From positions 1 through 64,000 of the forward strand of contig NZ_CP076364.1 in the NCBI RefSeq assembly GCF_018798885.1: a DNA stretch of 64,000 nt, in the 5' to 3' direction. The notes beneath the pieces were generated by a model. That model was not told the DNA's origin, did no database searches, and saw only the letters and a program-made list of their open reading frames with translations. Positions within the stretch are counted from its first letter, which is position 1. Each line of letters begins with the position of its first letter. A program made the position numbers and the translations under genes. Below are positions 33,994-48,889 of the stretch, one piece after another. Source of the DNA: Gemmobacter fulvus (lineage in GTDB: Bacteria; Pseudomonadota; Alphaproteobacteria; Rhodobacterales; Rhodobacteraceae).

Positions 33994-34857
33994 GGCTCCA
34001 GACTCATTGATCGTCATAGCCAGAACATGACGGTAGCGGCGAAAGCGACTGCGGAGAGGAATGTCTTTGCGCACCTGTCGTAGCGGGTTGCGACGCGGCG
34101 CCAGTCCTTCAGCCTACCGAACATGATCTCGATCCAGTTGCGGGGACTATAGCGGCGCTTGTCGTAGGGGACGGTCTTGGCGCGTGACTTCCGGCCCGGG
34201 ATGCAGGGGCGTATCCCCTTGTCTTTCAAAGCATCCCGAAACCAGTCGGCATCATAGCCCCGGTCGGCAATCAGCCATTCAGCGGCCGGCAGGCTGCCCA
34301 GCAAGGCCGCGGCGCCGGTATAGTCGCTGACCTGGCCCGCGGTCATGAAGAAGCGCAGCGGGCGGCCCTTGGCGTCGGTGAATGCGTGGAGTTTAGTGTT
34401 CATGCCACCTTTGGTGCGGCCGATCAGACGCCCTCTCTGGTCGCCGGGCCCCCCTTTTTCGCCCGCAGGCTCGAAGCCGTGCGGTGCGCCTTCAGGTAGG
34501 TCGCGTCGATCATGACGACCTTCTCTTCGCCGCCTTCGGAGGCCAGTCCCTCCATCATCCGGGCGAACACCCCCATGTCGCCCCATCGCTTCCATCGGTT
34601 GTAGAGTGTCTTCGGCGGGCCATACTCCCGAGGCACATCGCACCACCGCAACCCATTGCGATTGACGAATATTATCCCGCTCAGAACACGCCGGTCATCG
34701 ACACGCGGCTTGCCATGGCGCTTCGGAAAGAACGTCCGCAGCCGGTCCATCTGCTCGTCAGTAAGCCAAAAAAGGTTGCTCATCTTCACCCCCGTCAGTC
34801 CGGGAGCTTGAAACATGCAGGCCTGGCGACCTCAAGCAGATCAATGGGTCCTGACCC
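33994..34857 (-). mobile_element. IS5-family element (IS427-like), about 864 bp
   Basis: The 19-bp termini at 33994-34012 and 34839-34857 (inner part CATTGATC shared, 15 of 19 matching) bound a two-frame transposase. The left flank ends in TA but the right flank does not, so no target duplication is visible. The right end abuts an IS110-type left end at exactly the point where the second 359-bp repeat also begins. Confidence 0.8.
34014..34783 (-). CDS. IS5-family transposase, two frames joined by frameshift
   Basis: The ATG at 34783 opens frame one ('MSNLFWLTDEQMDRLRTFFP', the DDE-type N-domain and the first Asp in 'VVMIDATYLKAH'). It runs into an A5-G6 stretch near 34455, then stops. The second frame resumes with 'RGRLIGRTKGGMNTKLHAF', 'LIADRGYDADWF' (second Asp) and 'NWIEIMFGRLKDWRRVATR' (third acidic residue). 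Such slippery runs are the normal programmed frameshift of IS427-type elements, so the transposase is probably intact. Confidence 0.85.
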
Positions 34858-35206
34858 TTCTGTATCTGCGCTCTGCTATACTGGCCTCGTCACCGGCCCC
34901 GGCCAGGGTCAGTGACGGGGTGGTGCGCGACGTCTGACCCTTGTGGCCTGACCTCGCTTCTTAGCCTGTCGGCACCGCCTCTCTTCATCGTCTCGAACAG
35001 TTGATTGCGGCCTTGCAGGACCGCGCACCAGAAGGAAGAAAGCATGGACAACCTATCACATGGCCGCGTTATCGGCATAGATGTCAGCCGCGATTGGCTT
35101 GACGTTCATTGCCTCCCAGATGGGCATCGCGTCAGAGTGCCCAACGCCCCGGCGGGTCATGCTGCCGTAGCGGATCTTGCCAGAGACCGAGACGCCGTCG
35201 TCTGCT
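34848..35206 (+). repeat. Left copy of 359-bp direct repeat flanking the catabolic cassette
   Basis: This copy matches 43584-43942 with three differences that I can see by eye. It begins inside an IS5-type terminus (GTCCTGACCC) and runs through the long non-coding left end and the first 54 codons of an IS110-family transposase, breaking at the iolG-like stop codon. Confidence 0.9.
35044..35206 (+). pseudogene. IS110-family transposase, first 54 codons
   Basis: This fragment starts with ATG at 35044 and encodes 'MDNLSHGRVIGIDVSRDWLD', the RuvC-like start with the first catalytic Asp, and 'HRVRVPNAPAGHAAVADLA'. It is cut at a TAG made by the junction with the catabolic genes. The 190-bp leader resembles the long left end that carries the guide RNA in the IS110 group. 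Confidence 0.85.
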
Positions 35207-36209
35207 AGGTGCCCAGCACGTTCGCGAAAGCCACCGGCTTTCCGGATTGCAACGACTGTGCAGCGGCTTCTGCCATCGCAAGCGCCGCGATGCCGTCAGA
35301 CAAGGTGACCGGCAGCGCGTCCCCTGCGCTGACTGCCGCAACAAAGGCGGCCCATTCAGCAGAGTAGGCCGGCATATAGCGTTCAAGGAAGAAATAGGTG
35401 GGTTTTGCCCCTGTGACTCCGGCGATGGTCGATTTGACGACTGTGTTTTCAAGCATGTTCTGCGCCTGCAGCAAGCCTTCGGACCCCAGCAGCTCAACCC
35501 GCTGGTCATAGCCATAGACCGCTCGACGACTGTTCTTGATGACCGCAATCCGACCATCGGCATAGGTCAGCGTGACCACCGCCGTATCCACGTCTCCCGC
35601 CGCCCCGATGGCCGGATCGACGATGGAGGATCCCACAGCTGAAACGGTGACGGGGGGCGCATCCATGATGAAATTGGCCATGTCGAAATCATGGATCATC
35701 ATGTCGCGGAACAGACCGCCCGAGACCTTGATATAGGCCACGGGCGGGGGCGCCGGGTCGAACGAGGTGATCGACAGCAGCTCGGCCTTGCCGATCTCGC
35801 CCTTGTCCAGCGCGGCTTTCAGCGCGGCGAAGTTCGGATCAAAGCGGCGGTTGAAGCCGATCATCACGGGGCGGCCCGTAGAGGTGACGGCCTTCTGGCA
35901 GGCCTGTGCCCGCGCCAGCGACAGATCCACCGGCTTTTCGCACAGCACGGCTTTGCCCGCCGCCGTTGCCCGCTCGATCAGGTCGGAATGGGTGTCGGTC
36001 GAGGTGGCGATCAGCACGGCGTCGATCGACGCATCGGCCAGAATGGCCTCGGTGGCGCGGGCCTCGGCCCCGTATTGCGCGGCCAGTTTGGCGGCGGCGT
36101 CAGCGTTGATGTCCGACACCGCGACAAGACGACTGCCGGGATTGGTGGAAATGGCGGTGGCATGCACGCCCGCGATGCGGCCTGCGCCAAGAAGGGCTAC
36201 GTTCAACAT
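35205..36209 (-). CDS. Gfo/Idh/MocA oxidoreductase, inositol 2-dehydrogenase-like
   Basis: This 334-residue NAD(P)-dependent dehydrogenase has an N-terminal Rossmann motif 'VALLGAGRIAGVHA', the family signature 'CEKPVDL', and the catalytic Asp/His segment 'GGLFRDMMIHDFDMANF', as in IolG, which oxidises myo-inositol to its 2-keto form. Related enzymes act on many polyols and sugars, so the substrate is open. It is the last gene of the operon, and its stop codon is the exact junction with the left 359-bp repeat. Confidence 0.9.
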   Translation of the reverse strand: MLNVALLGAGRIAGVHATAISTNPGSRLVAVSDINADAAAKLAAQYGAEARATEAILADASIDAVLIATSTDTHSDLIERATAAGKAVLCEKPVDLSLARAQACQKAVTSTGRPVMIGFNRRFDPNFAALKAALDKGEIGKAELLSITSFDPAPPPVAYIKVSGGLFRDMMIHDFDMANFIMDAPPVTVSAVGSSIVDPAIGAAGDVDTAVVTLTYADGRIAVIKNSRRAVYGYDQRVELLGSEGLLQAQNMLENTVVKSTIAGVTGAKPTYFFLERYMPAYSAEWAAFVAAVSAGDALPVTLSDGIAALAMAEAAAQSLQSGKPVAFANVLGT

Positions 36210-36225
36210 GTGATGACCTTGTCAG

Positions 36226-37035
36226 TTACAGGCCCAGATCGGCCTTGAAAGCGGCGAATTCAGCGTCAGCCATGGCGACGTTGTGCTGCGGTTCGGGATA
36301 GGCGCCTGCGTTCACGTCGGCGATGAACTCGCGGAAGGCGGCGATGCGTTCGCTTTGCAGCCGGGCGTATTCGGCGGCGAAGGTGCGGTAGGTTTTGGCA
36401 TGACGCGGCTTGTGGCCATCGGTGCAGCCCAGCACGTCTTCGGCGAACAGATATTGCGCGTCGGCCCCCGGCCCCGCTCCCATGCCCAGCATGATCATCG
36501 GGGTGTTTTGCGAGATCAGCGCGCCCAGACGGTCGGGCACCACCTCCAGCTCTGCACCAAAGCAGCCGATGGCTTCCAGCTGTTTCACATGGTCCCAGAC
36601 CGACCGTGCCTCGGCTGCGGTTTTGCCCACCGCGCGCCAGCCGGTCCAGGTGATGTAGCTGGGGATCAGGCCGACATGGGCGACCACGGGCATGTGGTTG
36701 TCGCACAGCGCCTTCTGGATATCCAGACTGGCGGCGCAGTAGAAGCAGTCGCCCCCCATCGCAGTGAACTTGAACGCCGCGCGGAGGTACTCTTCCGCTG
36801 TGGCCAGCCCGCCATAGGGGCCGAAGGGCAGACCGACCTGCACGAAACAGCGGCCTGCCGCCTCGCGCATTTCAGCGGTGAAGAAGCGGCTTTCAATCGA
36901 CAGCATGTGGATGCCCGCCGCATCGGCCGCGGCGGCTTCCTCCAGCGTGGTGACATAGAGCATGCTGATTTTCTGCCCCCGCGCTTTCATGGCGCGCATG
37001 TCGTGCACCGTGGGGCGATTGGCTTTGTGGACCAT
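36226..37035 (-). CDS. PanB-like enzyme with altered metal site
   Basis: This 269-residue protein is of the ketopantoate hydroxymethyltransferase family (PEP/pyruvate TIM barrel). Clear PanB landmarks: 'VGLPFGPYGG', 'VVAHVGLIPSYI', 'LEVVPDRL', 'GMGAGPGADAQ', 'DGHKPRHAKTY', 'PEPQHN'. By my alignment the PanB metal ligands are changed: the GDS Asp is Glu48, the ADMPF Asp is Gly68, the Lys and Glu of V-K-x-E-G-G are Tyr99 and Ala101, while the catalytic Glu (E164) stays. It is therefore unlikely to make pantoate and probably does an aldol or retro-aldol step in this operon's pathway. The ATG at 37035 lies four bases after the upstream stop. Confidence 0.85.
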   Translation of the reverse strand: MVHKANRPTVHDMRAMKARGQKISMLYVTTLEEAAAADAAGIHMLSIESRFFTAEMREAAGRCFVQVGLPFGPYGGLATAEEYLRAAFKFTAMGGDCFYCAASLDIQKALCDNHMPVVAHVGLIPSYITWTGWRAVGKTAAEARSVWDHVKQLEAIGCFGAELEVVPDRLGALISQNTPMIMLGMGAGPGADAQYLFAEDVLGCTDGHKPRHAKTYRTFAAEYARLQSERIAAFREFIADVNAGAYPEPQHNVAMADAEFAAFKADLGL

Positions 37036-37039
37036 GATA

Positions 37040-37813
37040 TTACACCGTAAAAGCGTTGCGGAAGGCTTCGAGAGCAGCCTCTTCATCGCCGCTGGCAAAG
37101 CCTTCAAGGCTGACATGGCCGGAATAGCCCATGGCTTTCAAAGCCTTGGCAATAGCGTGATAGTTGATCTCGCCCGTGCCCGGCTCGTAGCGGCCCGGGT
37201 TGTCGGCCACCTGCACCTCACCGATCCATGGCAGGCATTTCTCGCACCAGCGGATCAGATCACCCTCGCCGATCTGGGTGTGGTAAAGGTCAAGGTTGAT
37301 GCGAAGCTCGGGGCGGTTGACCGCGGACACCAGCGCCAGCACATCTGCCGTTGACCCGAAGGGGCAGCCCGGATGATCCAGCAGGTTTAGGTTTTCCAGC
37401 GTAAAGATCACACCCAGTTCCGCCCCAAGATCGCAGATGCGGTTCAGGGTATCGCGGGCCTTCAGCCACATTGCACCCGTAGCCACCTGTGTCTGCCAGA
37501 TCGGGATACCGCCATCGCCCAGCCCCGTGCCGTGCAGGTTCAGCCGCTGCACCCCAAGCCGTTTGCCCACGGCAGCGGTTTCCCGGGCCGAGGCCAGCAG
37601 CAGGTCAGCGCCCGCATCATCGGCCAGGCGCCCCTCGAGATAGCCATTCATGATGGTGAAAGTGGCCCCCGTGGCTGCCAGCTTGGCCAAATCCCAGGCG
37701 GGCCAGTTCCACAGGCCAACACCAAAGCCCATCTCTTTCAGACGCGACGCGCGCCACTCGATCGGGCGGTCGCACCACAGCATTTCGGCGCAGGCGGCAA
37801 GGGGGAATGTCAT
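37040..37813 (-). CDS. Hydroxypyruvate-isomerase-like TIM-barrel enzyme
   Basis: This 257-residue protein is of the sugar-phosphate isomerase/epimerase (AP-endonuclease 2) fold. Metal-binding acids are visible in 'FTLENLNLLDHPG', 'INLDLYHTQIGEG', 'VQVADNPGRYEPGTGEINY' and 'HVSLEGF', and the 'RYEPGTGEINY' stretch is typical of hydroxypyruvate and related keto-acid isomerases. It probably isomerises a small keto- or aldo-sugar acid in the pathway. It starts one base after the Rieske gene. Confidence 0.88.
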   Translation of the reverse strand: MTFPLAACAEMLWCDRPIEWRASRLKEMGFGVGLWNWPAWDLAKLAATGATFTIMNGYLEGRLADDAGADLLLASARETAAVGKRLGVQRLNLHGTGLGDGGIPIWQTQVATGAMWLKARDTLNRICDLGAELGVIFTLENLNLLDHPGCPFGSTADVLALVSAVNRPELRINLDLYHTQIGEGDLIRWCEKCLPWIGEVQVADNPGRYEPGTGEINYHAIAKALKAMGYSGHVSLEGFASGDEEAALEAFRNAFTV

Positions 37814-37814
37814 G

Positions 37815-38138
37815 TCAGATCTCGATATACACAGCGCCGTCTTCGACTTTGACGGGGAAGGTTTTCAGGTTGATGCAGGCGGGAGCGCGCTTGGCCTCGC
37901 CGGTGCGGTAGCAGAAGGTGGCGCTGTGCTTGGGGCATTCGACCGTGCCCTCCATCACCAGCCCGTCGGCGAGATGCACCTTTTCGTGGCTGCAAATGCC
38001 GTCCATGGCGAAGAACTCGTCTTCTTCGCTGCGGATGATGATGAAGGTCTGCGCGCCGTGATCAAAGCGCATCAGATCGTCAAGGTCGATGTCGGTGGTG
38101 GCGCAGGCGCGTATCCAGTTGGGCATGATCAGATCCAT
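37815..38138 (-). CDS. Rieske [2Fe-2S] ferredoxin
   Basis: This 107-residue single-domain electron carrier has both cluster boxes, C49-S-H51 ('GICSHEKVHLADG') and C68-P-K-H71 ('VECPKHSATF'). Small Rieske ferredoxins pass electrons from a flavin reductase to an oxygenase. The operon also encodes a membrane di-iron hydroxylase, the most likely acceptor. No reductase gene is present, so one must be supplied from elsewhere. Confidence 0.92.
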   Translation of the reverse strand: MDLIMPNWIRACATTDIDLDDLMRFDHGAQTFIIIRSEEDEFFAMDGICSHEKVHLADGLVMEGTVECPKHSATFCYRTGEAKRAPACINLKTFPVKVEDGAVYIEI

Positions 38139-38222
38139 CGGTTTTTGGGTGCCCCGGCCCGGTAGAGGATCGGGCCGGGGCGATGATCGGTGTCCGGGGG
38201 AAACTGGACACCGACGGGGAGA

Positions 38223-39044
38223 CTATTGCGCCGGCGGCGGCGGGTGGCCGCCATGGCTGTTCATGTAGGTTTCGATCTCGGCCTCAAGGCTGGCCATCGA
38301 GGCCCCGCCCGCCATCAGATCGGTGATTTCTTCGCGGGTCTTTTCGCCCTTGTGGAAGTCGGCGGCGACCGCGCCGCGGATCAGCACCGCGAAATGATCG
38401 CCCACGGCCATGGCGTGCATCACCTGATGGGTGATGAAGATCACCGCGAGGCCCCGCCGTTTCGCCTCGTTCACGATGCGCAGAACATGGGTGGCCTGCT
38501 TGACGCCAAGTGCTGCGGTGGGCTCATCCAGGATCAGCACCCGCGCGCCGAAATGCACGGCACGGGCAATGGCCAGTGATTGACGTTCGCCGCCGGACAG
38601 ACCGCCGACCAGACGGTCGCCGTCGTCGATCCGGGTGATGCCGAAATCGCGCACGGCCTTGACGGCGATGTCATTGGCGCGCTGGCGGTCATAAACCTTG
38701 AACGGCCCGAAGCCCTTGGTCGGCTCTACCCCCACGAAAAAGCTGCGGCCGATGGACATCAGGGGGAAGGTTCCACCGAACTGGTGCACCGTGGCGATGC
38801 CCTTTTCAGATGCGGCGCGCGGGGTCGGCAGGCCGATGCCCGTGCCATCCATCTCTATGGTGCCAGAGCTGGGTTGGTGGACGCCCGACATGATCTTGAT
38901 GAGCGTGGATTTTCCGGCGCCATTGTCGCCCAGCAGGCACAGAACCTCACCCGCGCGGACCTCCAGCGTGATGTCATGCAGCACGTCGATGGGGCCGAAG
39001 GATTTGTTGACGCCACGCAGCGCAAGGATTGGTGCGGCCATCAC
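38223..39044 (-). CDS. Ribose-type sugar ABC transporter, ATP-binding protein
   Basis: This 273-residue protein has one ABC domain: Walker A 'LLGDNGAGKSTLIKIM', signature 'VGGLSGGERQSLAIARA', Walker B 'ARVLILDEPTAALG', H-loop 'VIFITHQVMHA'. RbsA-type proteins usually have two domains in 500 residues, so this is the single-domain (FrcA-like) form that dimerises. It overlaps the permease gene by four bases. Confidence 0.93.
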   Translation of the reverse strand: MMAAPILALRGVNKSFGPIDVLHDITLEVRAGEVLCLLGDNGAGKSTLIKIMSGVHQPSSGTIEMDGTGIGLPTPRAASEKGIATVHQFGGTFPLMSIGRSFFVGVEPTKGFGPFKVYDRQRANDIAVKAVRDFGITRIDDGDRLVGGLSGGERQSLAIARAVHFGARVLILDEPTAALGVKQATHVLRIVNEAKRRGLAVIFITHQVMHAMAVGDHFAVLIRGAVAADFHKGEKTREEITDLMAGGASMASLEAEIETYMNSHGGHPPPPAQ

Positions 39045-40048
39045 TTGCCCCCTTTCTTCGGCGCATAGGACAGCGCCATTTTGCGGAAGGTATTGTTCAT
39101 CAAGACTGCGCCCAACAGCAGCACGCCGATGATGAGCGACGACCAGTTGCGGTCAAAATCAGTGTAGTAGATGCCTTGGGTGACGATGGCGAAGGTGATG
39201 GTGCCAAAGAAGATCCCGATCACCGACCCGAAGCCCCCGGTCAGCAGCACGCCCCCCACCACAACCGAGATGATCGCGTTGAAGATGAACGACTGCCCGC
39301 CCGCCACCTGGGCCGAGTTGTAAAGGATCGCCTGGCACATGCCGACAAAGGCGGCGGAGGTGGAGGACAGCACGAACAGCACCATGGTCAGCCGCTCGGT
39401 CGGGATGCCGGCGTTGCGGGCCGAAACCTTGTCGCCGCCCATGGCGAAAACCCAGTTCCCGAAGGGTGACAGGTGGACAAAGAACACATACAGCGCCGTC
39501 AGCCCCAGCCACCACAACACCATGACCTGCATCTGCCCGCCCAGCACGAAATCGCCAAACATCACCTTGGCCACGCCTTCGGTTTTCAGGGCGACCGAGG
39601 TGGATTTGGTGATCAGCACGGTCAGGCCCAGCACGATGCCCTGAACGGCAAACAGGGTGCCCAGCGTCACGATCAGCGATGGAACGGCGGTGCGGATCAC
39701 CAGAAAGCCATTCACCAGACCGACGATCACGCCGAAAGACAATGCCGCAGCAATGCCCATCCAGATCGGCAACCCGTAATGGCCCGAGATCACGGAAACG
39801 GTCATCGCGCCAAAGGGCACCATGGCCCCGACCGAGATGTCCAGCTCGCCCGCGATCATCAACAGGCCCAGCGGAATGGCGATGACGCCAAGGTTTGCGG
39901 CAACGTTCAGCCAGCTTGCCATGCCGGAGGGTTTCAGGAAGGTGACTCCGCCAAAGATGGCAAAGAAGATGAGGACGGCGAAAAGGCCAAGCGCGGCCCC
40001 CGCTTCGGGGCGGCGCGCAAGGGCGCCAAAGGAAAAGGTTCTGGACAT
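39041..40048 (-). CDS. Ribose-type sugar ABC transporter, permease
   Basis: This 335-residue integral membrane protein with eight to ten helices is of the RbsC/BPD_transp_2 family, for example 'PLGLLMIAGELDISVGAM' (the conserved EAA-like segment with G-E-x-D-x-S-V-G) and 'SVVVGGVLLTGGFGSVIG'. The ATG at 40048 is preferred over one 51 bases upstream, since it gives the usual N-terminus. It transports the ligand delivered by the binding protein. Confidence 0.93.
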   Translation of the reverse strand: MSRTFSFGALARRPEAGAALGLFAVLIFFAIFGGVTFLKPSGMASWLNVAANLGVIAIPLGLLMIAGELDISVGAMVPFGAMTVSVISGHYGLPIWMGIAAALSFGVIVGLVNGFLVIRTAVPSLIVTLGTLFAVQGIVLGLTVLITKSTSVALKTEGVAKVMFGDFVLGGQMQVMVLWWLGLTALYVFFVHLSPFGNWVFAMGGDKVSARNAGIPTERLTMVLFVLSSTSAAFVGMCQAILYNSAQVAGGQSFIFNAIISVVVGGVLLTGGFGSVIGIFFGTITFAIVTQGIYYTDFDRNWSSLIIGVLLLGAVLMNNTFRKMALSYAPKKGGK

Positions 40049-40128
40049 GATGCCCCCGGAATGGCTGCGAGAAACGGGCGAGGTGTGGGGTCCGGCCAAC
40101 CCGTGGCGGGGGCCGGACCGATGTCAGA

Positions 40129-41100
40129 TCAACGCGCGCCTTTGGCCACCCCGGCCAGCGTGGCATCGATGTTGGACGCATCCACGATCCCCGGGCCGGT
40201 CAGCACCGGAAACACCGGCAGGTCGGTGCCAAAGTCGATATGCGCGGCCAGCAGGCTGACCGCCAGGAAGGATTGCAGATAGGGCTGCTGGTCAATGGCA
40301 AAGGCCTGGGTGCCGCCCTTGATACGGTCAAGACCCGCCTGGTTCATGTCGAACGAGCCGAGCAGGGTCTTGCCGCTCTTGCCCGCCTGATCCACCGCGA
40401 TGGCCGCGCTGTCAGCGTCGCCGGCCGAGATGGTGATGACGCCGTCGATGCTTTCATCTTTCAGCAGTTCCGCCTTGATCGCCTCGGCCACGGCCGTTGC
40501 ATCGCCAAAGCTGGTGGTCGGCAGCGGCAGTTGCGCACCCATGCCGCCTGCGGTGGTCACGCCATCGATCACGCCCTTGCAGCGCGCCTCGGTGTTGGAC
40601 GCACCCGGCAGGGTGTTGATGCAGAGCACATTCTTCTGCCCGCCCTTGCCGAAATACTCGCCCCCGGCCAGACCGGCCACATATTCATCAGAGCCGACAT
40701 AGTTGATCGCGCCCAGTTCGGTCGCCTTGTCAGCACCGCCCGCATTCATCAGGATCACCTTGATCCCTGCGGCGATGGCGTCCTTGATTGCGGGATCTTC
40801 GGCCTCGGGCACCCAGTTCGGGATGACCAGACCATCAACCTCCATCGAGATCGCGGTGCGGATCAGTTGCACAACATCGGGGGCGAAGTTGTCGTAATTC
40901 ACCAGACGCAGGTAGTTCACGCTGCCGCCATTGGCGACAACGCCGGGGGTGGCATCGTCTATGCCTTTCTTGATGATGTTCCAGAAGGCATCGTCATTCG
41001 AGCCGCCGATCACCGCGATATCGGCCGACATCGCCGCCGAAGCGCTGCTGATCAGGGCCGTGGTTGCCAATGCCTTGGCGAGGGTTTTCATAAAGCTCAT
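40129..41100 (-). CDS. Ribose-type sugar ABC transporter, periplasmic binding protein
   Basis: This 323-residue exported protein has signal 'ALATTALISSASAAMSA' and is a type I periplasmic binding fold of the RbsB/LacI-like class ('DIAVIGGSNDDAFWNIIKKG', 'VDGLVIPNWVPEAEDPAI', 'IDGVITISAGDADSAAIAV', 'LGSFDMNQAGLDRIKGG'). It captures the substrate for the operon's enzymes. Homologues bind pentoses, polyols or autoinducer-2; ligand contacts cannot be assigned from sequence alone. Confidence 0.92.
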   Translation of the reverse strand: MSFMKTLAKALATTALISSASAAMSADIAVIGGSNDDAFWNIIKKGIDDATPGVVANGGSVNYLRLVNYDNFAPDVVQLIRTAISMEVDGLVIPNWVPEAEDPAIKDAIAAGIKVILMNAGGADKATELGAINYVGSDEYVAGLAGGEYFGKGGQKNVLCINTLPGASNTEARCKGVIDGVTTAGGMGAQLPLPTTSFGDATAVAEAIKAELLKDESIDGVITISAGDADSAAIAVDQAGKSGKTLLGSFDMNQAGLDRIKGGTQAFAIDQQPYLQSFLAVSLLAAHIDFGTDLPVFPVLTGPGIVDASNIDATLAGVAKGAR

Positions 41101-41196
41101 GTGTCGTCTCCTCCCTTGTCCCGCCGTTGGTGGCGGGTTTTCAATCTTTGGGTTGACCTGCTGACCCGGCCTCCCTGCCGGATCAGCAGGGATGGA

Positions 41197-42213
41197 TCAT
41201 CCGCGCAACGCCTTGGCGTTCATCCGCGCTTTCTTTTTCTCGAACCGGGCCTGCATCTGCGCATCGCCCGCTTTCGATCCGTCGTGGAAATAGCCAAACC
41301 ACTTGTCCAAAGGGATCAGCCCATCCCCGCCGTAGTTCACTTCGAAATACTTGTGGTGCAGGTAATGGGCGTAGGCGTGGCTGTCCAAAGTGCTGTCTTC
41401 CGTGATCTCCAGCTTGTCGAACCCGATATGGCCATTCACCGCGCCAAACCCCGCCAGATGCAGCTGGAACATTGCAATGATCGGGTTCGAGGGGATCACA
41501 AGGTGCCACAGCGCAACGGCGTGATACAGGAAGCCTTCGACAGGGTGCATCGACAGCGAAGACCACGGGCTGGGGTTGACCGAGTTGTGGTGAACCGAAT
41601 GCACCCATTTATACAGCAGCGGCGTGTGGATCAGGCGGTGGATGCAGAAGAAATGCACCTCATGGATCGCTGGGGCCAACAGGGTCAGCGTGACCAGCCA
41701 CAGCCAGTTGTCAGACCAGCTCAACCATGGAACGGCGCCCGTGGCATAGGCGTGCAAAAAGATCACCTGCACCAGCGTCCACAGCGGGATCGAGAGGAAG
41801 AAGCTGCGCAGGAAGTTGTCGATGTTCTGCGATTTGAACCAGAACACATCCGAAGGCTGTTCGGCCGGGAATTTCGCGTTGTACTTGAACCGCGTGCCCT
41901 GCTTTTTCTTTACATACCAGAACAGCTCCACCCCGCCGTAAAACACGAAGATCGCGGCGGCGTTCACGGCGTAAAGCCAGAGCGGCCAGCCAAAGGACAG
42001 GGTTTTCATCACCTCGACATCGGGCACGACATAGAACCACCAGATCAGCGTGGTTGCCATGTGGAAGGCGTTCCACGGGAACAGGTATTCCGGGATCCAG
42101 GCCAGAACTTTCGGCAGGCTGAACGGGCGCTTCCAGAACGGTGGCACGTCCAGAACCGCAGACGGGGCCCAGTCGCCACGTTTGTTCCGGGTGCCGAATT
42201 TCAGATCGTCCAT
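41197..42213 (-). CDS. Sterol-desaturase-type membrane hydroxylase
   Basis: This 338-residue membrane enzyme of the fatty-acid hydroxylase superfamily uses a di-iron site to hydroxylate an unactivated carbon. The ATG at 42213 has GGAGG six bases upstream. Several hydrophobic helices surround the histidine boxes 'HEVHFFCIHRLIH', 'WVHSVHHNSVNP' and 'HAYAHYLHHKYF'. It is the first gene of the operon and is joined by a Rieske ferredoxin downstream, a fitting electron donor. A water-soluble ABC-imported substrate with a membrane hydroxylase is unusual. Confidence 0.88.
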   Translation of the reverse strand: MDDLKFGTRNKRGDWAPSAVLDVPPFWKRPFSLPKVLAWIPEYLFPWNAFHMATTLIWWFYVVPDVEVMKTLSFGWPLWLYAVNAAAIFVFYGGVELFWYVKKKQGTRFKYNAKFPAEQPSDVFWFKSQNIDNFLRSFFLSIPLWTLVQVIFLHAYATGAVPWLSWSDNWLWLVTLTLLAPAIHEVHFFCIHRLIHTPLLYKWVHSVHHNSVNPSPWSSLSMHPVEGFLYHAVALWHLVIPSNPIIAMFQLHLAGFGAVNGHIGFDKLEITEDSTLDSHAYAHYLHHKYFEVNYGGDGLIPLDKWFGYFHDGSKAGDAQMQARFEKKKARMNAKALRG

Positions 42214-42436
42214 CTCTCGCCTCCGTTGCTTGACCTGCTGCTTTGCAAAGAAAATACGCCATCGCGCCGGGCCCGTTGTGCACGGTGCGCGGTCTGGCTT
42301 TGCAGCCCGGTGCTTTGGTAAATTTCCCCTGCTGGGGCGTCTGTCGGGTGTGGCCCTGCAGACCGCCTCATGGATCATTCTTAGACTTTCAATTCCACGC
42401 TCGATCAAGAATGGAATTTTTGTTTGCTTAATTTCG

Positions 42437-42479
42437 TCTCAAATGTATCATGTGGTATCACAAATGATATGATTTGAGA
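42437..42479. promoter_or_regulatory. Operator region between lacI-type gene and catabolic operon
   Basis: TCTCAAAT and ATTTGAGA form a perfect 8-bp inverted repeat across 27 AT-rich bases, with GTATCA repeated inside. It lies just upstream of, and overlaps, the regulator start, in a 260-bp divergent gap. It is a likely binding site for the LacI-type protein and perhaps RNA polymerase. Confidence 0.45.
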
Positions 42480-43511
42480 TGTTCTGCAGATGACCCGCCC
42501 CGCGATCTGGCCGATGCGGCCGCCGTTTCTGTTGCCACCGTGAACCGGGTTTTGGCGGGGGCGGCCAATGTGCGCGCGCCGACTCGGCTTCTGGTTCAGG
42601 AAGCGGCGGAGAGAATCGGCTTCTACGGCTTGGGCACCATCCAGTCGCGCGTTGCAGCCAGTCGCCCGAAATACCGCTTTGGCGTTCTGTTGTTGCAGCC
42701 GCATCGCCCGTTCTACCAAAACATCGCCGCCGCCCTGCGCCGCGCCGTGGCCGAGGTGACCAGCGCCGAGATCGACCTGCGGATCGAATTTCTGGAGGAT
42801 CTGTCGCCACAAAACACCGCTGACCGCGCGCTTGCGCTGGCAAAGGACTGTCAGGCCCTGTGCATCGTTGCCGCCGTGCATCCCATCGTGACCGAGGCCG
42901 TGGCCCAGATTCAGGCGCGGGGGGTGCATGTCTTTGCTCTTGTGGGGCAGCTTTCGGCCACCGGTCAGGTGCCCTATATCGGTTTGGACAACTGGAAGGT
43001 TGGCCGCACCGCTGCATGGACGTTTGCCAATGTCTGCAAGACCCCCGGCAAGATCGGGATTCTTCTGGGCAACCCTCGCTATCGAAATCAGGAAATGAAC
43101 GAAGCTGGTTTTCGGTCCTATTTCCGCGAAATGGCGTCCGAGTTTACCCTGCTTGAACCGCTCTCAACCTTTGAAGCCTCGGCAATCGCGCAGGAGATGA
43201 CGGAAAAGCTGCTTGCAGAGCATCCTGATCTGGTCGGGCTTTACATCTCGGGCGGTGGGATAAGTGGCGCGCTTGCTGCGCTGCGCAGTGCGGGCAAGAC
43301 GGAGAAAATTGTGGCGGTGGGCTATGATCTGTTTGATGTGACCCGTTCGGCGCTGCTGGATGGCACCATGACCCTTGTCATCTCGCACCCATTGGACCGA
43401 CTTGCCCATGACGCGATGGAGGCCATGGTCGCCGCATGCGCGCCCATCAGCAGCCCCGCAAACCTGACCCGTGTGGTTCCCTTCGAGATATACACGCGAG
43501 AAAATCTGTAG
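42474..43511 (+). CDS. LacI-family transcriptional regulator of the cassette
   Basis: This 345-residue protein has an N-terminal LacI helix-turn-helix ('RDLADAAAVSVATVNRVLAG', the family's V-S-x-x-T-V-x-R-V-L) followed by a sugar-binding PBP1 domain ('YRFGVLLLQPHRPFYQNIAA' to 'TMTLVISHPLDRLAHDAMEA'). The first codons are unusual (MRCSADDPPRD), so the start is uncertain. It is divergent from the catabolic operon and likely senses the same imported compound as the RbsB-type protein. Confidence 0.9.
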   Translation: MRCSADDPPRDLADAAAVSVATVNRVLAGAANVRAPTRLLVQEAAERIGFYGLGTIQSRVAASRPKYRFGVLLLQPHRPFYQNIAAALRRAVAEVTSAEIDLRIEFLEDLSPQNTADRALALAKDCQALCIVAAVHPIVTEAVAQIQARGVHVFALVGQLSATGQVPYIGLDNWKVGRTAAWTFANVCKTPGKIGILLGNPRYRNQEMNEAGFRSYFREMASEFTLLEPLSTFEASAIAQEMTEKLLAEHPDLVGLYISGGGISGALAALRSAGKTEKIVAVGYDLFDVTRSALLDGTMTLVISHPLDRLAHDAMEAMVAACAPISSPANLTRVVPFEIYTRENL

Positions 43512-43518
43512 GTGCCCA

Positions 43519-43572
43519 AAGGTCTTCCTTTCGGCCGTCGCCCTCGCCGCAACCGTCATGTTCTGGCTATGA
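43519..43572 (+). pseudogene. IS5-family transposase 3' remnant
   Basis: Eighteen codons, 'KVFLSAVALAATVMFWL' and stop, match the end of the IS5 transposase at 34014 but are diverged, so it is a different element. It begins right after the lacI-type gene and is followed by a terminus GAGTCCTGACCC, where the right 359-bp repeat begins. Confidence 0.75.
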
Positions 43573-43583
43573 CGCGAGAACGA

Positions 43584-43942
43584 GTCCTGACCCTTCTGTA
43601 TCTGCGCTCTGCTATACTGGCCCCGTCACCGGCCCCGGCCAGGGTCAGTGACGGGGTGGTGCGCGACGTCTGACCCTTGTGGCCTGACCTCGCTTCTTAG
43701 CCTGTCGGCACCGCCTCTCTTCATCGTCTCGAACAGTTGATTGCGGCCTTGCAGGACCGCGCACCAGAAGGAAGAGAGCATGGACAACCTATCACATGGC
43801 CGCGTTATCGGCATAGATGTCAGCCGCGATTGGCTTGACGTTCATTGCCTCCCAGATGGGCATCGCGTCAGAGTGCCCAACGCCCCGGCGGGTCATGCTG
43901 CCGCAGCGGATCTTGCCAGAGACCGAGACGCCGTCGTCTGCT
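43584..43942 (+). repeat. Right copy of 359-bp direct repeat
   Basis: This copy is the same as 34848-35206 apart from three differences seen by eye. Here the IS110-type transposase frame continues another 78 bases before being interrupted. The two copies flank the whole catabolic cassette in direct orientation. Confidence 0.9.
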
Positions 43943-44301: not shown

Positions 44302-45315
44302 TCACGCCATTCGATAGTCCTCCCCTTTCGTCATCATCGCCCAAACCATTCGTGCCATCTTGTTAGCCAATGCGACGGCGGCAACCATGCGCGGCTTGCG
44401 GGCAACGAGGTTGGCCAGCCATCGGTCGGGACTGCTGCCGCGGCGCACAACCCAGCGGATTACGCTCATGGCCCCGACGATCAACAGCTTGCGGATGTCG
44501 CATTGCCCCATCTTGCTGACCGCACCTAGGCGGGTCTTGCCGCCGGTTGAGTGTTGTCGCGGGACTAGACCCAGCCACGCGGCAAAGTTCCGGCCATTGT
44601 CAAAGGCCTCAAGATCCGGAGCAAAAGCCGCGATGGCGCCGGCGGTCACTGGGCCAATGCCCGGCACGGTGCACAGTCGCCGCAACTCGCAATCGGTCTT
44701 TGTCGCAGCCTCAAGGTCGCAGGCCAAGCGCGTGATGATGTCGGTCAGCTGGTCGATCTGCTGCAAATAGATCTGTCCCATCTCCCGAACCGGCGCAGGC
44801 AGATCGACATCCGATCCCTTCAAGGCAGTTTGCAAAAGCTTCAGATGGATCGGCCCTTTCGGAGCCACCAGGCCGAACTCTGCCAGATGCCCTCGTAGCG
44901 CGTTGATCAACTGCGTCCGCTGCCGCACAAAACACTGATGCGTTCGAAAAGCTACGGCACGCCCTTGCTTCTCGGCGCTCTTAACGGCGACGAAGCTCAT
45001 GCTGGGCCGTGAGGCCGCTTCGGCGATGGCTGCCGCGTCAGCAAAATCATTCTTCTGGCGCTTCACAAAGGGCTTCACATAATTTGCCGGGATCAGCCGC
45101 ACGTCATGACCGTGCGCCATGGCCACACGGCCCCAGTGATGCGACGTGGCGCAAGCCTCCATAGCGACAACACACGGTACCTGATCCGCAAGCAACTGCA
45201 CCAGCCGCCCACGCGATATCGCCCGGTTGAAGACAACGACGCCATCCGACCTGACGCCGCAAACCTGAAAACTGTTCTTGGCAAGGTCGATCGCCAGTAT
45301 GCTAATCTCAGACAT
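44302..45315 (-). CDS. IS1111-type transposase (DEDD recombinase)
   Basis: The ATG at 45315 gives 337 residues: N-terminal RuvC-like DEDD domain ('MSEISILAIDLAKNSFQVCG', 'VVAMEACATSHHWGRVA', 'KRQKNDFADAAAIAEAA') and C-terminal Tnp_20 domain with 'CTVPGIGPVTAGAIAAFAP' and 'RNFAAWLGLVPRQHSTGGK', which carries the Ser of the active site. It appears intact. It is related to, but clearly diverged from, the copy at 53505. Confidence 0.93.
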   Translation of the reverse strand: MSEISILAIDLAKNSFQVCGVRSDGVVVFNRAISRGRLVQLLADQVPCVVAMEACATSHHWGRVAMAHGHDVRLIPANYVKPFVKRQKNDFADAAAIAEAASRPSMSFVAVKSAEKQGRAVAFRTHQCFVRQRTQLINALRGHLAEFGLVAPKGPIHLKLLQTALKGSDVDLPAPVREMGQIYLQQIDQLTDIITRLACDLEAATKTDCELRRLCTVPGIGPVTAGAIAAFAPDLEAFDNGRNFAAWLGLVPRQHSTGGKTRLGAVSKMGQCDIRKLLIVGAMSVIRWVVRRGSSPDRWLANLVARKPRMVAAVALANKMARMVWAMMTKGEDYRMA

Positions 45316-45392
45316 GGATGCCTCCCTCATCTTGGTTCCAACAAAACCACTTTGGCACATTCGATGCTGTCGGGTGGGGGCATCCACCGCAT

Positions 45393-46121: not shown

Positions 46122-46760
46122 TCATAATGCTGCATAGACATAAAGACACTGACAAGGCTCAGTTTGAGATGCGCTAAGGCAGGCATGACCCATCGTGCCG
46201 TCAAAAAACAAACTGTCACCGACATCTAGCGTGATAGGCGTGTAGCCTTCCGAATGGAACGCAAGCCGACCGGATAGGACAAAAAGCATGTCCTCGCTCT
46301 CATGCCTGTTCATCGGGCCGAAGGCCGCGAGGTCGGCCTCGATAAAATCGACGACCGCCGCCTGAAAGTGACGACCCTGCAATTGACTGGCCAGCGCGTA
46401 GAAACGGTGATTGGGATAGTCGAGGGCCACACCCGACATCCTACGTTCGACGTGCAGACGCCCAACAAGCGGGTGCCGCTCAGGCTGAACCAAAGCTGCA
46501 AGTTCGATCTGCAAGCCACGAGCCAGTTTCAAAAGCAGCTCAAATGTAGGTGAAAGCTGTCCCTTTTCGATTTTCGACAGGGTTGATCGGGCAAAGCCTG
46601 CCTTGGCCGCAAGGTCAACCTGACTCATGCCCTGCGCTTGGCGCAGGGTACGAATTCGCTCGGCCAATCCTGCATGAGCATCTTCATCCCGAGGACGCGA
46701 TTTGCTGTGTTCTATAGTCAAGTCGTTCTCATTGACTGCATTGTGTTCGTATAATAGCAT
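46122..46760 (-). CDS. XRE-cupin transcriptional regulator
   Basis: This 212-residue protein has an N-terminal Cro/C1 helix-turn-helix ('GMSQVDLAAKAGFARSTLSK') and a C-terminal cupin ('MNRHESEDMLFVLSGRLAFH', 'ITLDVGDSLFFDGTMGHAC') that would bind a small ligand. It is divergent from the aminotransferase operon with only 30 bp between starts, and its first codons overlap the promoter, so it probably represses both itself and that operon. Confidence 0.9.
   Translation of the reverse strand: MLLYEHNAVNENDLTIEHSKSRPRDEDAHAGLAERIRTLRQAQGMSQVDLAAKAGFARSTLSKIEKGQLSPTFELLLKLARGLQIELAALVQPERHPLVGRLHVERRMSGVALDYPNHRFYALASQLQGRHFQAAVVDFIEADLAAFGPMNRHESEDMLFVLSGRLAFHSEGYTPITLDVGDSLFFDGTMGHACLSASQTEPCQCLYVYAAL
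46750..46755 (+). promoter_or_regulatory. Probable -10 box of the aminotransferase operon
   Basis: TATAAT lies 35 bp before the aminotransferase start. A GTGTTC motif is repeated upstream (near 46707 and 46743), a possible pair of regulator sites. No good -35 hexamer sits at 17 bp, as expected for an activator- or repressor-controlled promoter. Confidence 0.4.
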
Positions 46761-46790
46761 TCATCTGACTCATGATCAAAGGCTAATCCG

Positions 46791-48113
46791 ATGACGGGAC
46801 TGAAATCGCAACAATTGTTCGAACGCGGTCGCAAGGTGCTGATCGAGGGTGTTTCCTCAGCCTCGCGAGGTCCTTCTACGTTTGGCGGCGCCCCGCGGTA
46901 CATGAGCCATGGGCAGGGCGCACGTCTGTATGATGTAGACGGCAATTCCTACATCGACTGGATGATGGCGTTCGGGGCCTTGCCCCTGGGCCATGCCCAT
47001 CCCGCTGTCGTCGAGACCGTCGCGCGTGAAGTTGCGGGGGGTACTCATTTCGCCACGGCCCTACAGGTTGAAGTCGAAGTGGCCGAAATGCTCGTTGACC
47101 TTCTACCACATGTGGAGAAGGTCCGCTTTGCCAACACAGGGACCGAAGCCGCAATGGCTGCCATCCGGCTCGCACGCGGTCATACTGGGAGACGCAAGAT
47201 CATCAAGTTTGAGGGGCATTACCATGGCTGGTGGGATGCCGTTCTATTGAACACCAATCCCCTACCGCCAACGATGTTTGGTCATCCCAATGACCCGATT
47301 CGCATTCCTGACAGTTCGGGCATTCCCGAAGAAGCGTGGCGCGACACCATTGTTGTCCGCTGGAACGATGTCGAGGCATTAGAACGTGCCATGGCCATCC
47401 ATGGACGTGAGGCGGCTTGCCTCGTGACCGAAGGTATCATGTCGAATATGGGGGTCATTCCACCAAAGCCTGGCTATCTCCTGCGAATGCAGGACCTGTG
47501 TCGCGAGTACGGCGCCCTGTTCTATCTTGATGAAACTGTAACAGGGTTTCGTGTCGCTGCTGGCGGCTGCGCTGAACTCTACGGTCTGGACCCTGATATC
47601 GTGACTTATGGCAAAGCACTTGGCGGTGGCCTGCCCATGGCAATGATCGGTGGGCGAAACGAGGTTATGTCTGGCCTCGAATGGGGCAAGGTGCTGCATT
47701 ACGGCACCCATAACGCGGGTCGTCTCGCGTTAAGCGTGACCAAAGTTATGCTGCAAACCCTCCTGGCAAACGATCGCGCCGGTTTTTCCGTTCTACGTGA
47801 CCGCGGGCTGAAGATGGCCGAAGCGTTTCGTACGGTTGCGCGCGCTTCGAACCGGCATGGGGTGATCTGTCAGGGTGTGAACTCAATGTTCCAGATCTTC
47901 TTTACGGATCGTGAGGTTATCAGCGATTTTCGTGAATTCTGCACCCATGTAGACCGCTTGAAATTCCGCGATTTTACCCTGCGGCTGATGGACAAGGGGA
48001 TCTACATGAATCCTTCGGCCACGCTGCATTCCCTGTCTTCGCTCGCACATAGCGACGCCGATATCGCAGCCACGGCTAAAGCCATGGCCGAAGTTCTGGA
48101 CGAAATGCCATGA
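46791..48113 (+). CDS. Class III aminotransferase, glutamate-1-semialdehyde-mutase-like
   Basis: This 440-residue PLP enzyme resembles HemL: 'GGAPRYMSHGQGARLYDVDG', 'VRFANTGTEAAMAAIRLARG', 'KFEGHYHGWWDAVL', 'LFYLDETVTGFRVAAGG' and the PLP-lysine segment 'VTYGKALGGGLPMAMIGGR'. True HemL is a core haem gene; this one is paired with a dehydrogenase and an XRE-cupin regulator, so it more likely transaminates an amino acid or amine in a catabolic route. Its stop overlaps the next gene by ATGA. Confidence 0.88.
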   Translation: MTGLKSQQLFERGRKVLIEGVSSASRGPSTFGGAPRYMSHGQGARLYDVDGNSYIDWMMAFGALPLGHAHPAVVETVAREVAGGTHFATALQVEVEVAEMLVDLLPHVEKVRFANTGTEAAMAAIRLARGHTGRRKIIKFEGHYHGWWDAVLLNTNPLPPTMFGHPNDPIRIPDSSGIPEEAWRDTIVVRWNDVEALERAMAIHGREAACLVTEGIMSNMGVIPPKPGYLLRMQDLCREYGALFYLDETVTGFRVAAGGCAELYGLDPDIVTYGKALGGGLPMAMIGGRNEVMSGLEWGKVLHYGTHNAGRLALSVTKVMLQTLLANDRAGFSVLRDRGLKMAEAFRTVARASNRHGVICQGVNSMFQIFFTDREVISDFREFCTHVDRLKFRDFTLRLMDKGIYMNPSATLHSLSSLAHSDADIAATAKAMAEVLDEMP

Positions 48114-48889
48114 TATTGCGCGTCGGATTTTTGGGCACGGGATCCTTGGCAAGCTTTCTGGTTCGCTGTTTGTCTCGGGAACCGGATGTCAGGATCATGA
48201 TTTCCCCTCGCAACGCTGCGCGTGCGGCGCAGCTTGCCTGCGACTATGGCGCCGAAGTTGGCGCCGACAATCAAGATGTCATCGAGCGCAGCGACCTCTT
48301 GATGGTGTGTCTACCTGCCGACGCAGGAGCCGAGGTCCTTGCGAAGCTGCAGTTTCGCACTGGACAGGTAGTGATTTCAGCGATGGCAGGCGTTTCCCAT
48401 GAGTTGGTCACTGCAGCAGTTTCGCCCGCCTGCGCACATCTGGCGATGATGCCCGGTCATGCCAATGCGCTTGGCCTTGGCCCGGTTGTTCTCTATCCCA
48501 GCGACGTACAAAGCCATGCGTTATTGCAGCGCTTTGGTCCGGTGATCTCTGTCAAAGACGAGGCTACCTTCACGACAGCGGCCACCTTCGGCGCAGTGTC
48601 GGGTGCCAGTTTTGCATGGATGGTCACGATGATCCGGTGGTTTGAAAATCATGGGTTAGCTTCCGACTACGCACGAAAGTTGGTAGCAGCCACTTTGCAG
48701 GGGAATGCCGGGGTGCTCCTTGCTGAGGACACTCCACTGGATGACATTCTGGCAGGTGTCGCCACACCCGGTGGCATCACCGAACTGATGGTTGACAGTT
48801 TAGAAAAACATGATGCCCTGAACAGTTGGGTGTACGGTATGACTGATGTTCTGCACAGACTGAAAGCGCCAGCAGCGCCAAGCGATTGA
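48110..48889 (+). CDS. Pyrroline-5-carboxylate-reductase-like NAD(P) enzyme
   Basis: This 259-residue protein has a Rossmann start 'VGFLGTGSLASFLVRCLSRE', then 'RSDLLMVCLPADAGAEVL', 'VISAMAGVSHELV', and a helical C-terminal dimer domain with 'VATPGGITELMVDSLEKHDA', where ProC has the T-P-G-G-x-T motif. That keeps the ProC active-site loop. With the aminotransferase it could transaminate a diamino or omega-amino acid and then reduce the cyclised imine. Confidence 0.85.
   Translation: MILRVGFLGTGSLASFLVRCLSREPDVRIMISPRNAARAAQLACDYGAEVGADNQDVIERSDLLMVCLPADAGAEVLAKLQFRTGQVVISAMAGVSHELVTAAVSPACAHLAMMPGHANALGLGPVVLYPSDVQSHALLQRFGPVISVKDEATFTTAATFGAVSGASFAWMVTMIRWFENHGLASDYARKLVAATLQGNAGVLLAEDTPLDDILAGVATPGGITELMVDSLEKHDALNSWVYGMTDVLHRLKAPAAPSD

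Follow-up and report, generated by a model that had tools for sequence, protein, structure and literature searches.

A conserved operon of Gemmobacter fulvus with a MocE-type ferredoxin and a remodelled PanB-like protein, proposed for the catabolism of O-methylated inositols

Which compound is degraded by a gene cluster of Gemmobacter fulvus that joins a sugar-type importer, a membrane oxygenase and a Rieske ferredoxin, and what would a PanB-like protein do in such a pathway? The cluster lies within the 64,000-nucleotide stretch analysed here (the window, positions 1 to 64,000 of contig NZ_CP076364.1). The preliminary description of this DNA had listed eight tightly spaced minus-strand genes under a divergent LacI-type regulator, and this list was right, as all nine genes were found at 35205-43511, eight on the minus strand with spacing from a 1-bp overlap up to 96 bp, and the regulator gene on the plus strand (42474-43511; PF00356 and PF13407). 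The N-terminal codons of the regulator are out of frame relative to 18 orthologues, so that its frame opens at TTG. In the divergent promoter region, intergenic motif comparison revealed two TGATAC/GTATCA motifs (42445-42460) as a candidate operator. This motif was present in 36 of 46 intergenic regions against a mean of 3.4 and a maximum of 9 in 200 shuffles, which overstate the significance since the regions are related by descent, and in which single-base shuffling was substituted whenever the dinucleotide walk failed to close. Inverted repeats in the promoter region were limited to two weak pairs, and in a consensus scan of 35000-43700 neither terminator-like sites (8 versus 7.1 expected) nor promoter-like sites (1 versus 2.0 expected) were in excess. 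The operon is flanked on both sides by insertion sequence remnants (34848-35206 and 43584-43942) which are 99.2% identical to each other, and their IS110 type was judged from the sequence and from a nearby IS110 transposase gene (44302-45387).

The families of the encoded proteins would fit oxidative catabolism of an inositol-like compound. The oxygenase (41197-42213) is a membrane di-iron enzyme of the FA_hydroxylase family (PF04116, 63.3 bits, cut-off 31) and a proposed O-demethylase. It is 59% identical to a homologue on S. meliloti pSymA, from which its start, common to both, was taken, and 12 histidines, including those of the HX3H, HX2HH and HX2HH motifs, were invariant in all 54 aligned rows. 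The ferredoxin (37815-38138) carries the C-X-H...C-X2-H motif of a Rieske [2Fe-2S] protein and passes the curated cut-off of the MocE family (TIGR02377, 155.2 versus 136.15 bits). The importer consists of a periplasmic sugar-type binding protein (40129-41100), a permease of ribose/galactofuranose type (39041-40048; PF02653, 142 bits) and a single-domain ATPase (38223-39041; PF00005, 102.4 bits). The IolG-type protein (35205-36209) passes the cut-off for inositol 2-dehydrogenase (TIGR04380, 424.8 versus 355 bits), and the xylose-isomerase-like TIM barrel (37040-37813; PF01261, 93.6 bits), which reached no NCBIfam model cut-off, is proposed to be a keto-inositol isomerase or epimerase.

The earlier remark that the combined functions are not familiar from any named pathway is not supported, as shown by the MocE match and by a near relative, the mocDEF system of rhizopine catabolism in S. 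meliloti L5-30 and R. leguminosarum. This is the nearest system described, and in it an oxygenase, a MocE-type Rieske ferredoxin and a reductase act on an O-methyl inositol derivative (PMC10107442, PMC3538637, PMC5132102). In several rhizobia, a LacI gene is likewise divergent from mocD, with a TIM barrel gene nearby and the inositol pathway downstream. However, the window has a PF04116 oxygenase, whereas MocD-type loci have a fatty-acid-desaturase-type enzyme, a contrast that rests on record annotation and on PF00487 in the homologue L144 rather than on the L5-30 MocD sequence. In addition, the trio is incomplete here, with no reductase gene in the operon, while the operon holds its own importer and IolG and adds the PanB-like protein to the mocDEF set as described in those sources.

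Many Rhodobacterales and Rhizobiales share this catabolic operon in conserved form. We collected 62 related loci and used the 38 with at least 7 kb on either side for counts, where a gene was scored as present when its match exceeded a threshold that we set (150 bits for PurU and FolD). The gene set was conserved, with the oxygenase, MocE and LacI in 37 of 38 loci each, each importer part in 36, the TIM barrel in 35 and IolG in 29. MocF (10/38), PurU (10/38) and FolD (5/38) were found on the strand of the operon, one PurU excepted, and matches below 150 bits to PurU (L047, L049 and L052) and FolD (L055) were not counted. PurU and FolD are linked to the operons of relatives in several gene orders; L012, for example, has the order SBP-permease-ATPase-MocE-TIM-MocF-PanB-FolD-PurU-IolG. 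Two Marivivens loci continue directly downstream into iolG-iolC-iolD. In seven plasmid loci (L014, L015 and L138-L142), the PanB-like clade is paired with another di-iron enzyme, MocD, together with MocE in all seven, MocF in five and PurU in two. Hyd-MocE clusters without a PanB-like gene also exist (L016, L017 and L143), and therefore the PanB-like step is not obligatory. Chance association of the genes is ruled out by the gene set shared among the 38 well-flanked loci, and a pathway without relatives by the many related loci.

The PanB-like protein (36226-37035, with a likely start 81 bp inside the longest ORF) belongs to PF02548 (124 bits, cut-off 28.7) and has the PanB fold, with aldolases and lyases among its weaker fold matches. 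It reaches 84.8 bits against the panB equivalog TIGR00222 (cut-off 207.55). Like ketopantoate hydroxymethyltransferase, it retains the active-site residues H136 and E181, which were kept in all canonical, T1 and T2 rows. In contrast, D45, D84, K112 and E114 (E. coli numbering), which we take to be the metal and keto-acid ligands, were all kept in 31 of 31 canonical PanB rows and none was kept in any of 72 PanB-like rows (64 T1 and 8 T2); a separate alignment showed that they are replaced in the protein of the window as well. The PanB-like proteins form a clade separate from canonical PanB. In this tree, the window sequence (L003, L125) was represented by its 96%-identical orthologue L018 from Gemmobacter aquatilis; the duplicates L002, L083 and L135 were left out, as were ORFs longer than 400 aa (L141 is one of them) and short sequences, for example the partial L078 and L079, which fell below filters of a 200-aa ORF and more than 120 aligned residues, and the placement of the long rows L128, L129, L130 and L134 is unsure. 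A canonical PanB function is ruled out by the score below cut-off, the lost ligands and a separate canonical-type PanB in the same genome (355 bits, ligands kept). The catabolic operon of the preliminary description stands in its importer, ferredoxin-fed di-iron oxygenase and inositol-type enzymes, but its chemistry, in which a methyl branch would be hydroxylated and then lost as a hydroxymethyl group in a PanB-type retro-aldol step, is highly improbable. The PanB fold and the hydroxylase are in its favour, but a retro-aldol step would need the metal and keto-acid ligands, which this protein has lost, and the context is one of inositol, with no indication of a branched substrate.

We propose instead that the operon serves to degrade a cyclitol with an O-methyl group. 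Pinitol, ononitol or another O-methyl-inositol, or a closely related compound, is the most likely substrate; it would be demethylated oxidatively with transfer of the C1 unit by the PanB-like protein to tetrahydrofolate (THF), a reading to which we give about even weight. An ether rather than a C-methyl substrate fits IolG, the iolC and iolD genes beside two relatives, and folD and purU in some relatives. The ABC importer would take up the cyclitol, and electrons would flow from a ferredoxin reductase encoded elsewhere in the genome through MocE to the oxygenase, which would turn the O-methyl group into a hemiacetal by hydroxylating its carbon. The hydroxymethyl or formaldehyde unit would then be moved onto THF by the remodelled PanB-like protein, giving 5,10-methylene-THF, which FolD and PurU could convert to formate. 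The freed inositol would be oxidised by IolG, isomerised by the TIM barrel and directed into the IolE/D/B/C pathway of myo-inositol catabolism. Elsewhere, the genome encodes IolE and IolB over cut-off and IolC- and IolD-like proteins (four Iol genes were checked), PurU, and on contig C1 a MocF-like reductase (43%). A precedent for ether opening through a hemiacetal within PF04116 is alkylglycerol monooxygenase (AGMO), which has the FA_hydroxylase motif and hydroxylates the carbon beside the ether oxygen so that the hemiacetal yields an aldehyde (PMC3617469); as described there, it is a tetrahydrobiopterin-dependent lipid enzyme, whereas the oxygenase of the window is probably fed by ferredoxin and would act on a polyol. 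In porphyran degradation, 6-O-methyl-galactose is also demethylated oxidatively with release of formaldehyde, but by a P450, and the start of the abstract does not mention a PanB-like protein (PMC10033563). A legume exudate with pinitol as its most concentrated component induced homologues of mocDEF in R. mesoamericanum, together with myo-inositol genes and an importer of MocB type; these mocDEF homologues belong to another genus, and the authors interpreted them as rhizopine catabolism (PMC5789663).

The PanB-like clade can be considered more broadly. Matches at E 1e-40 were found in 10 of 190 genomes drawn evenly across the class (own genome included), and seven regions were opened from six of the nine other matching genomes. 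Oxygenase genes were adjacent or close in five of these, MocD in three and PhyH in two, one of the latter also with TauD, while L147 and L149 had no oxygenase among the 6 and 5 neighbouring ORFs tested. We tentatively suggest, at somewhat less than even confidence, that the clade is a new enzyme family that catalyses the uptake by THF of formaldehyde or of the hydroxymethyl group of a hemiacetal or hemiaminal, a THF counterpart of Fae that serves several O- and N-demethylase families (PF04116 and PF00487 di-iron enzymes and PhyH/TauD dioxygenases). A comparable fate of the C1 unit, transfer to THF followed by PurU, is likely for a GcvT-like, old-yellow-enzyme-type and PurU locus on contig C3 of the same genome, which uses the GcvT fold where the present operon has the PanB fold. 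Against the folate step, 28 of the 38 well-flanked relatives have no purU over threshold, and the operon in the window has no folD, purU or reductase gene. Two glutathione-dependent formaldehyde dehydrogenases over cut-off in the genome would be a sufficient alternative, and Fae had no match there. In the same O-demethylation operon, the PanB-like protein could act on the carbon skeleton, as an isomerase or a metal-independent aldolase on a keto-inositol, with formaldehyde going to these dehydrogenases. The aldolases and lyases among the fold matches and the position of the gene between those of the TIM barrel and IolG agree with such a role. However, members of the clade also stand with PhyH/TauD or MocD in L144, L145, L146, L148 and L150, where the 15-16 kb opened gave no match to inositol-gene queries, and the PurU/FolD linkage occurs in several gene orders, so that we consider a carbon-skeleton role unlikely.

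The THF-linked O-methyl-inositol route also has competitors regarding the substrate. A methylated sugar or another methylated polyol would suit the ribose/galactofuranose-type importer, and PanB-like relatives are found with gluconolactonase- and IlvD/EDD-type genes (L145) and with a glycine-betaine-type binding protein (L148), but the IolG equivalog match in the window and iolC/iolD directly downstream in the Marivivens loci leave this a low probability. Rhizopine (3-O-methyl-scyllo-inosamine) or another amino-cyclitol, degraded by a true moc system, would require the same enzyme logic, and both the MocE match and the binding protein, whose nearest NCBIfam model is the rhizopine MocB model NF052284, are in its favour. 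That model was matched at 151.8 bits against a cut-off of 420, however, the regulator is of LacI type instead of MocR (GntR/aminotransferase), and the nine genes include none for amine removal. Many of the 62 related loci are in Rhodobacterales, which to our knowledge are not known as rhizopine users, and we regard a true moc system as improbable.

The matches listed in a full-text literature search included no paper that we could identify as a description of this operon or of a PanB-like partner in demethylation, and none of them, by title or start of abstract, assigned a bacterial O-demethylation operon to methylated inositols. In many plants, these compounds account for a major part of the carbohydrates (PMC5889025). 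The spontaneous reaction of formaldehyde with THF is described as too slow to sustain growth on C1 compounds, and E. coli PanB and LtaE had been suspected as its catalysts until a double deletion made this unlikely (PMC7073904). With the very fold that came under suspicion there, the PanB-like clade offers a specific candidate for an enzymatic route of formaldehyde to THF. If this is true, proteins annotated as '3-methyl-2-oxobutanoate hydroxymethyltransferase' in such clusters (for example L012, L014, L015 and L138-L142) would not be pantothenate enzymes.

All nine genes listed in the preliminary description were present as it had described them. In this genome of 4.68 Mb and seven contigs, the window lies on contig C4, where the minus-strand operon encodes an oxygenase (PF04116 model), an importer (Peripla_BP_4 binding protein, BPD_transp_2 permease and ABC ATPase models), a ferredoxin above the curated cut-off of the MocE model, a xylose-isomerase-like TIM barrel, a PanB-like protein that matches PF02548 and misses the panB equivalog cut-off by far, and an IolG above the cut-off of the inositol 2-dehydrogenase model, with a LacI-type regulator divergent from them. 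The closest named operon relative found was in Gemmobacter aquatilis (DNA identity 93.7% over 8.26 kb).

The surprising component is the PanB-like protein. The AlphaFold2 model (pLDDT 81.8, pTM 0.84) matched only PanB enzymes among its first 28 solved structures (TM 0.60–0.73 by query length), and canonical PanB rows split from the remainder of the tree with support 100/100. We aligned 31 canonical PanB rows with 64 type-1 and 8 type-2 rows of the PanB-like clade, reading the window's own row in a separate alignment, and took E. coli PanB numbering and residue roles to apply. In all 64 type-1 and 8 type-2 rows the segment with D45 is absent; D84 is replaced by G (one type-1 row is gapped there), K112 by Y and E114 by A or S, and H136 and E181 are retained; the window's own protein has lost the ligands as well. 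In 11 more distant rows (9 different), the four ligands are also gone and H136 and E181 also retained. As one reading, the preliminary description had offered hydroxylation of a methyl branch and then loss of a hydroxymethyl group. A retro-aldol requires a metal-held enolate, and therefore the loss of the PanB metal and keto-acid ligands argues against this C–C cleavage.

We favor instead the oxidative O-demethylation of an imported O-methyl-inositol. The O-methyl carbon would be oxygenated to a hemiacetal, and AGMO provides a precedent for the PF04116 motif in hemiacetal-forming oxygenation (PMC3617469). At the remaining PanB-like site, acid-base help alone would suffice to hand formaldehyde to tetrahydrofolate (THF). 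Without an enzyme, formaldehyde was found to condense with THF too slowly to sustain growth on C1 carbon; PanB was one of two E. coli enzymes suspected of catalyzing the step, a role then made unlikely (PMC7073904). One review calls the reaction with THF spontaneous and credits Fae with accelerating the one with tetrahydromethanopterin (PMC8879981). A proposal for canonical PanB has its keto acid and methylene-THF joining in an adduct (PMC4814558), which makes folate binding a plausible, if putative, inheritance of the PanB-like protein. Other formaldehyde routes may operate beside the folate one, since the genome carries two glutathione-dependent formaldehyde dehydrogenases.

Using the PanB-like protein as query, genome contigs were scanned, giving 62 loci, and ratios were computed on the 38 with at least 7 kb on both sides, leaving out 24 near contig ends. 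Among the 38, the oxygenase, MocE and LacI each occurred in 37, the TIM barrel in 35, IolG in 29 and each importer part in 36; the counts for all 62 were 47 (oxygenase), 55 (MocE), 47 (LacI), 50 (TIM barrel), 45 (IolG) and 49–52 (importer parts). Over threshold, purU was found in 10/38 and in none of the other 28, folD in 5/38 and a MocF-type reductase in 10/38, all on the operon strand bar one purU. In Neotabrizicola (L012), folD and purU directly follow the PanB-like gene (PanB-FolD-PurU-IolG); other orders are IolG-MocF-PurU-FolD (L045, L048, L076), IolG-MocF-FolD-PurU (L059) and IolG-FolD-PurU (L054, L063), and these differences suggest repeated recruitment of folate genes. No folD or purU match was found in three opened oxygenase–MocE clusters without the PanB-like gene (L016, L017, L143). 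In the G. fulvus genome, purU lies away from the operon, adjoining GcvT-like and old-yellow-enzyme-type genes.

The IolG in the operon, the iolC/iolD genes downstream in two Marivivens loci, and the iolC-, iolD-, iolE- and iolB-type genes on contig C1 point to an inositol as substrate. The 1998 model reportedly has mocDEF taking the O-methyl group off 3-O-methyl-scyllo-inosamine. The names MocD, MocE and MocF come from rhizopine catabolism, in which mocBA, mocC and mocDEF take part (PMC10107442). In rhizobia, LacI (FixV-type) genes are transcribed away from mocD, and a TIM-barrel gene lies close by (PMC3538637). Mimosa exudate, whose most concentrated component is pinitol, raises expression of mocDEF homologues in Rhizobium mesoamericanum, together with genes for a MocB-type importer and for myo-inositol; rhizopine was the explanation put forward by the authors (PMC5789663). 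We read the response instead as pinitol demethylation. A second cluster type combines a 'fatty acid desaturase family' gene (MocD) with MocE and the PanB-like gene in all seven plasmid loci opened (L014, L015, L138–L142), with an FAD reductase in 5/7, iolG near the PanB-like gene on the same strand in 4/7 (L014, L140, L141, L142) and purU at the divergent-arm end in 2/7 (L140, L142). The G. fulvus genome holds such a MocD-type cluster too, as its second set, on C1 at about 2658 kb (locus L080, 10264–19454), in the order PanB-like, MocE, MocD, then LacI, TIM, importer, short-chain dehydrogenase and IolG.

IS-type remnants of 359 bp (34848–35206 and 43584–43942; 99.2% identical to each other) flank the operon, and each edge carries one copy of a 10-bp direct repeat (35206–35215 and 43509–43518), with no further plus-strand copy and one extra on the minus strand; both features suggest that the operon was mobilized as one unit. 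The terminal IolG codons differ from those of G. aquatilis (L018) and the related locus L020, and appear to derive from the flank. TGATAC/GTATCA, a candidate operator, occurred in 36 of 46 divergent promoter regions (200 shuffles: mean 3.4, maximum 9, a control too lenient for regions of common descent). All operon enzymes have open reading frames. The N-terminal LacI codons (42474–42510) do not keep the reading frame of the 18 orthologues compared, and regulation may thus be altered in this genome; a TTG-started frame is still open, and relatives carry intact copies. Beside the island (46122–48889), an HTH-cupin regulator gene is oriented divergently to genes for a class-III aminotransferase and a P5CR-like reductase.

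The PanB-like clade is widespread yet sporadic, since 10 of 190 genomes in an even draw of the class, own genome included, matched at E 1e-40; oxygenase relatives occur in 117 plasmid records. The PanB-like genes of L072 and L074 were assigned by binning to Trueperaceae and Flavobacteriaceae MAGs, through transfer or misbinning. We opened seven regions from six of the nine other matching genomes. The remaining three stayed at their original width: L126 and L134 sit close to the start of their contigs, and the 3.8-kb L127 contains MocE, TIM and IolG. MocD adjoins the PanB-like gene in L144, and L145 (2396–14733), from an AT-rich genome, reads MocD-MocF-MocE-PanB-MocD-Hyd. L145 further includes an importer and genes of the gluconolactonase, IlvD/EDD and enolase-superfamily types, and may serve methylated-sugar catabolism. 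In L148 (6084–10685), MocD-MocE-MocF-PanB adjoins a glycine-betaine-type binding protein, a possible N-demethylation version. Two alphaproteobacterial regions have PhyH-type genes: in L146 (6732–10059) two of them are divergent from a tandem pair of PanB-like genes, and in L150 (7092–10965) PhyH adjoins the PanB-like gene, with TauD genes near. No oxygenase was found among the six and five neighboring ORFs tested in L147 and L149. Judged from gene content, the factor common to PanB-like regions is a predicted demethylation-capable oxygenase, rather than one substrate.
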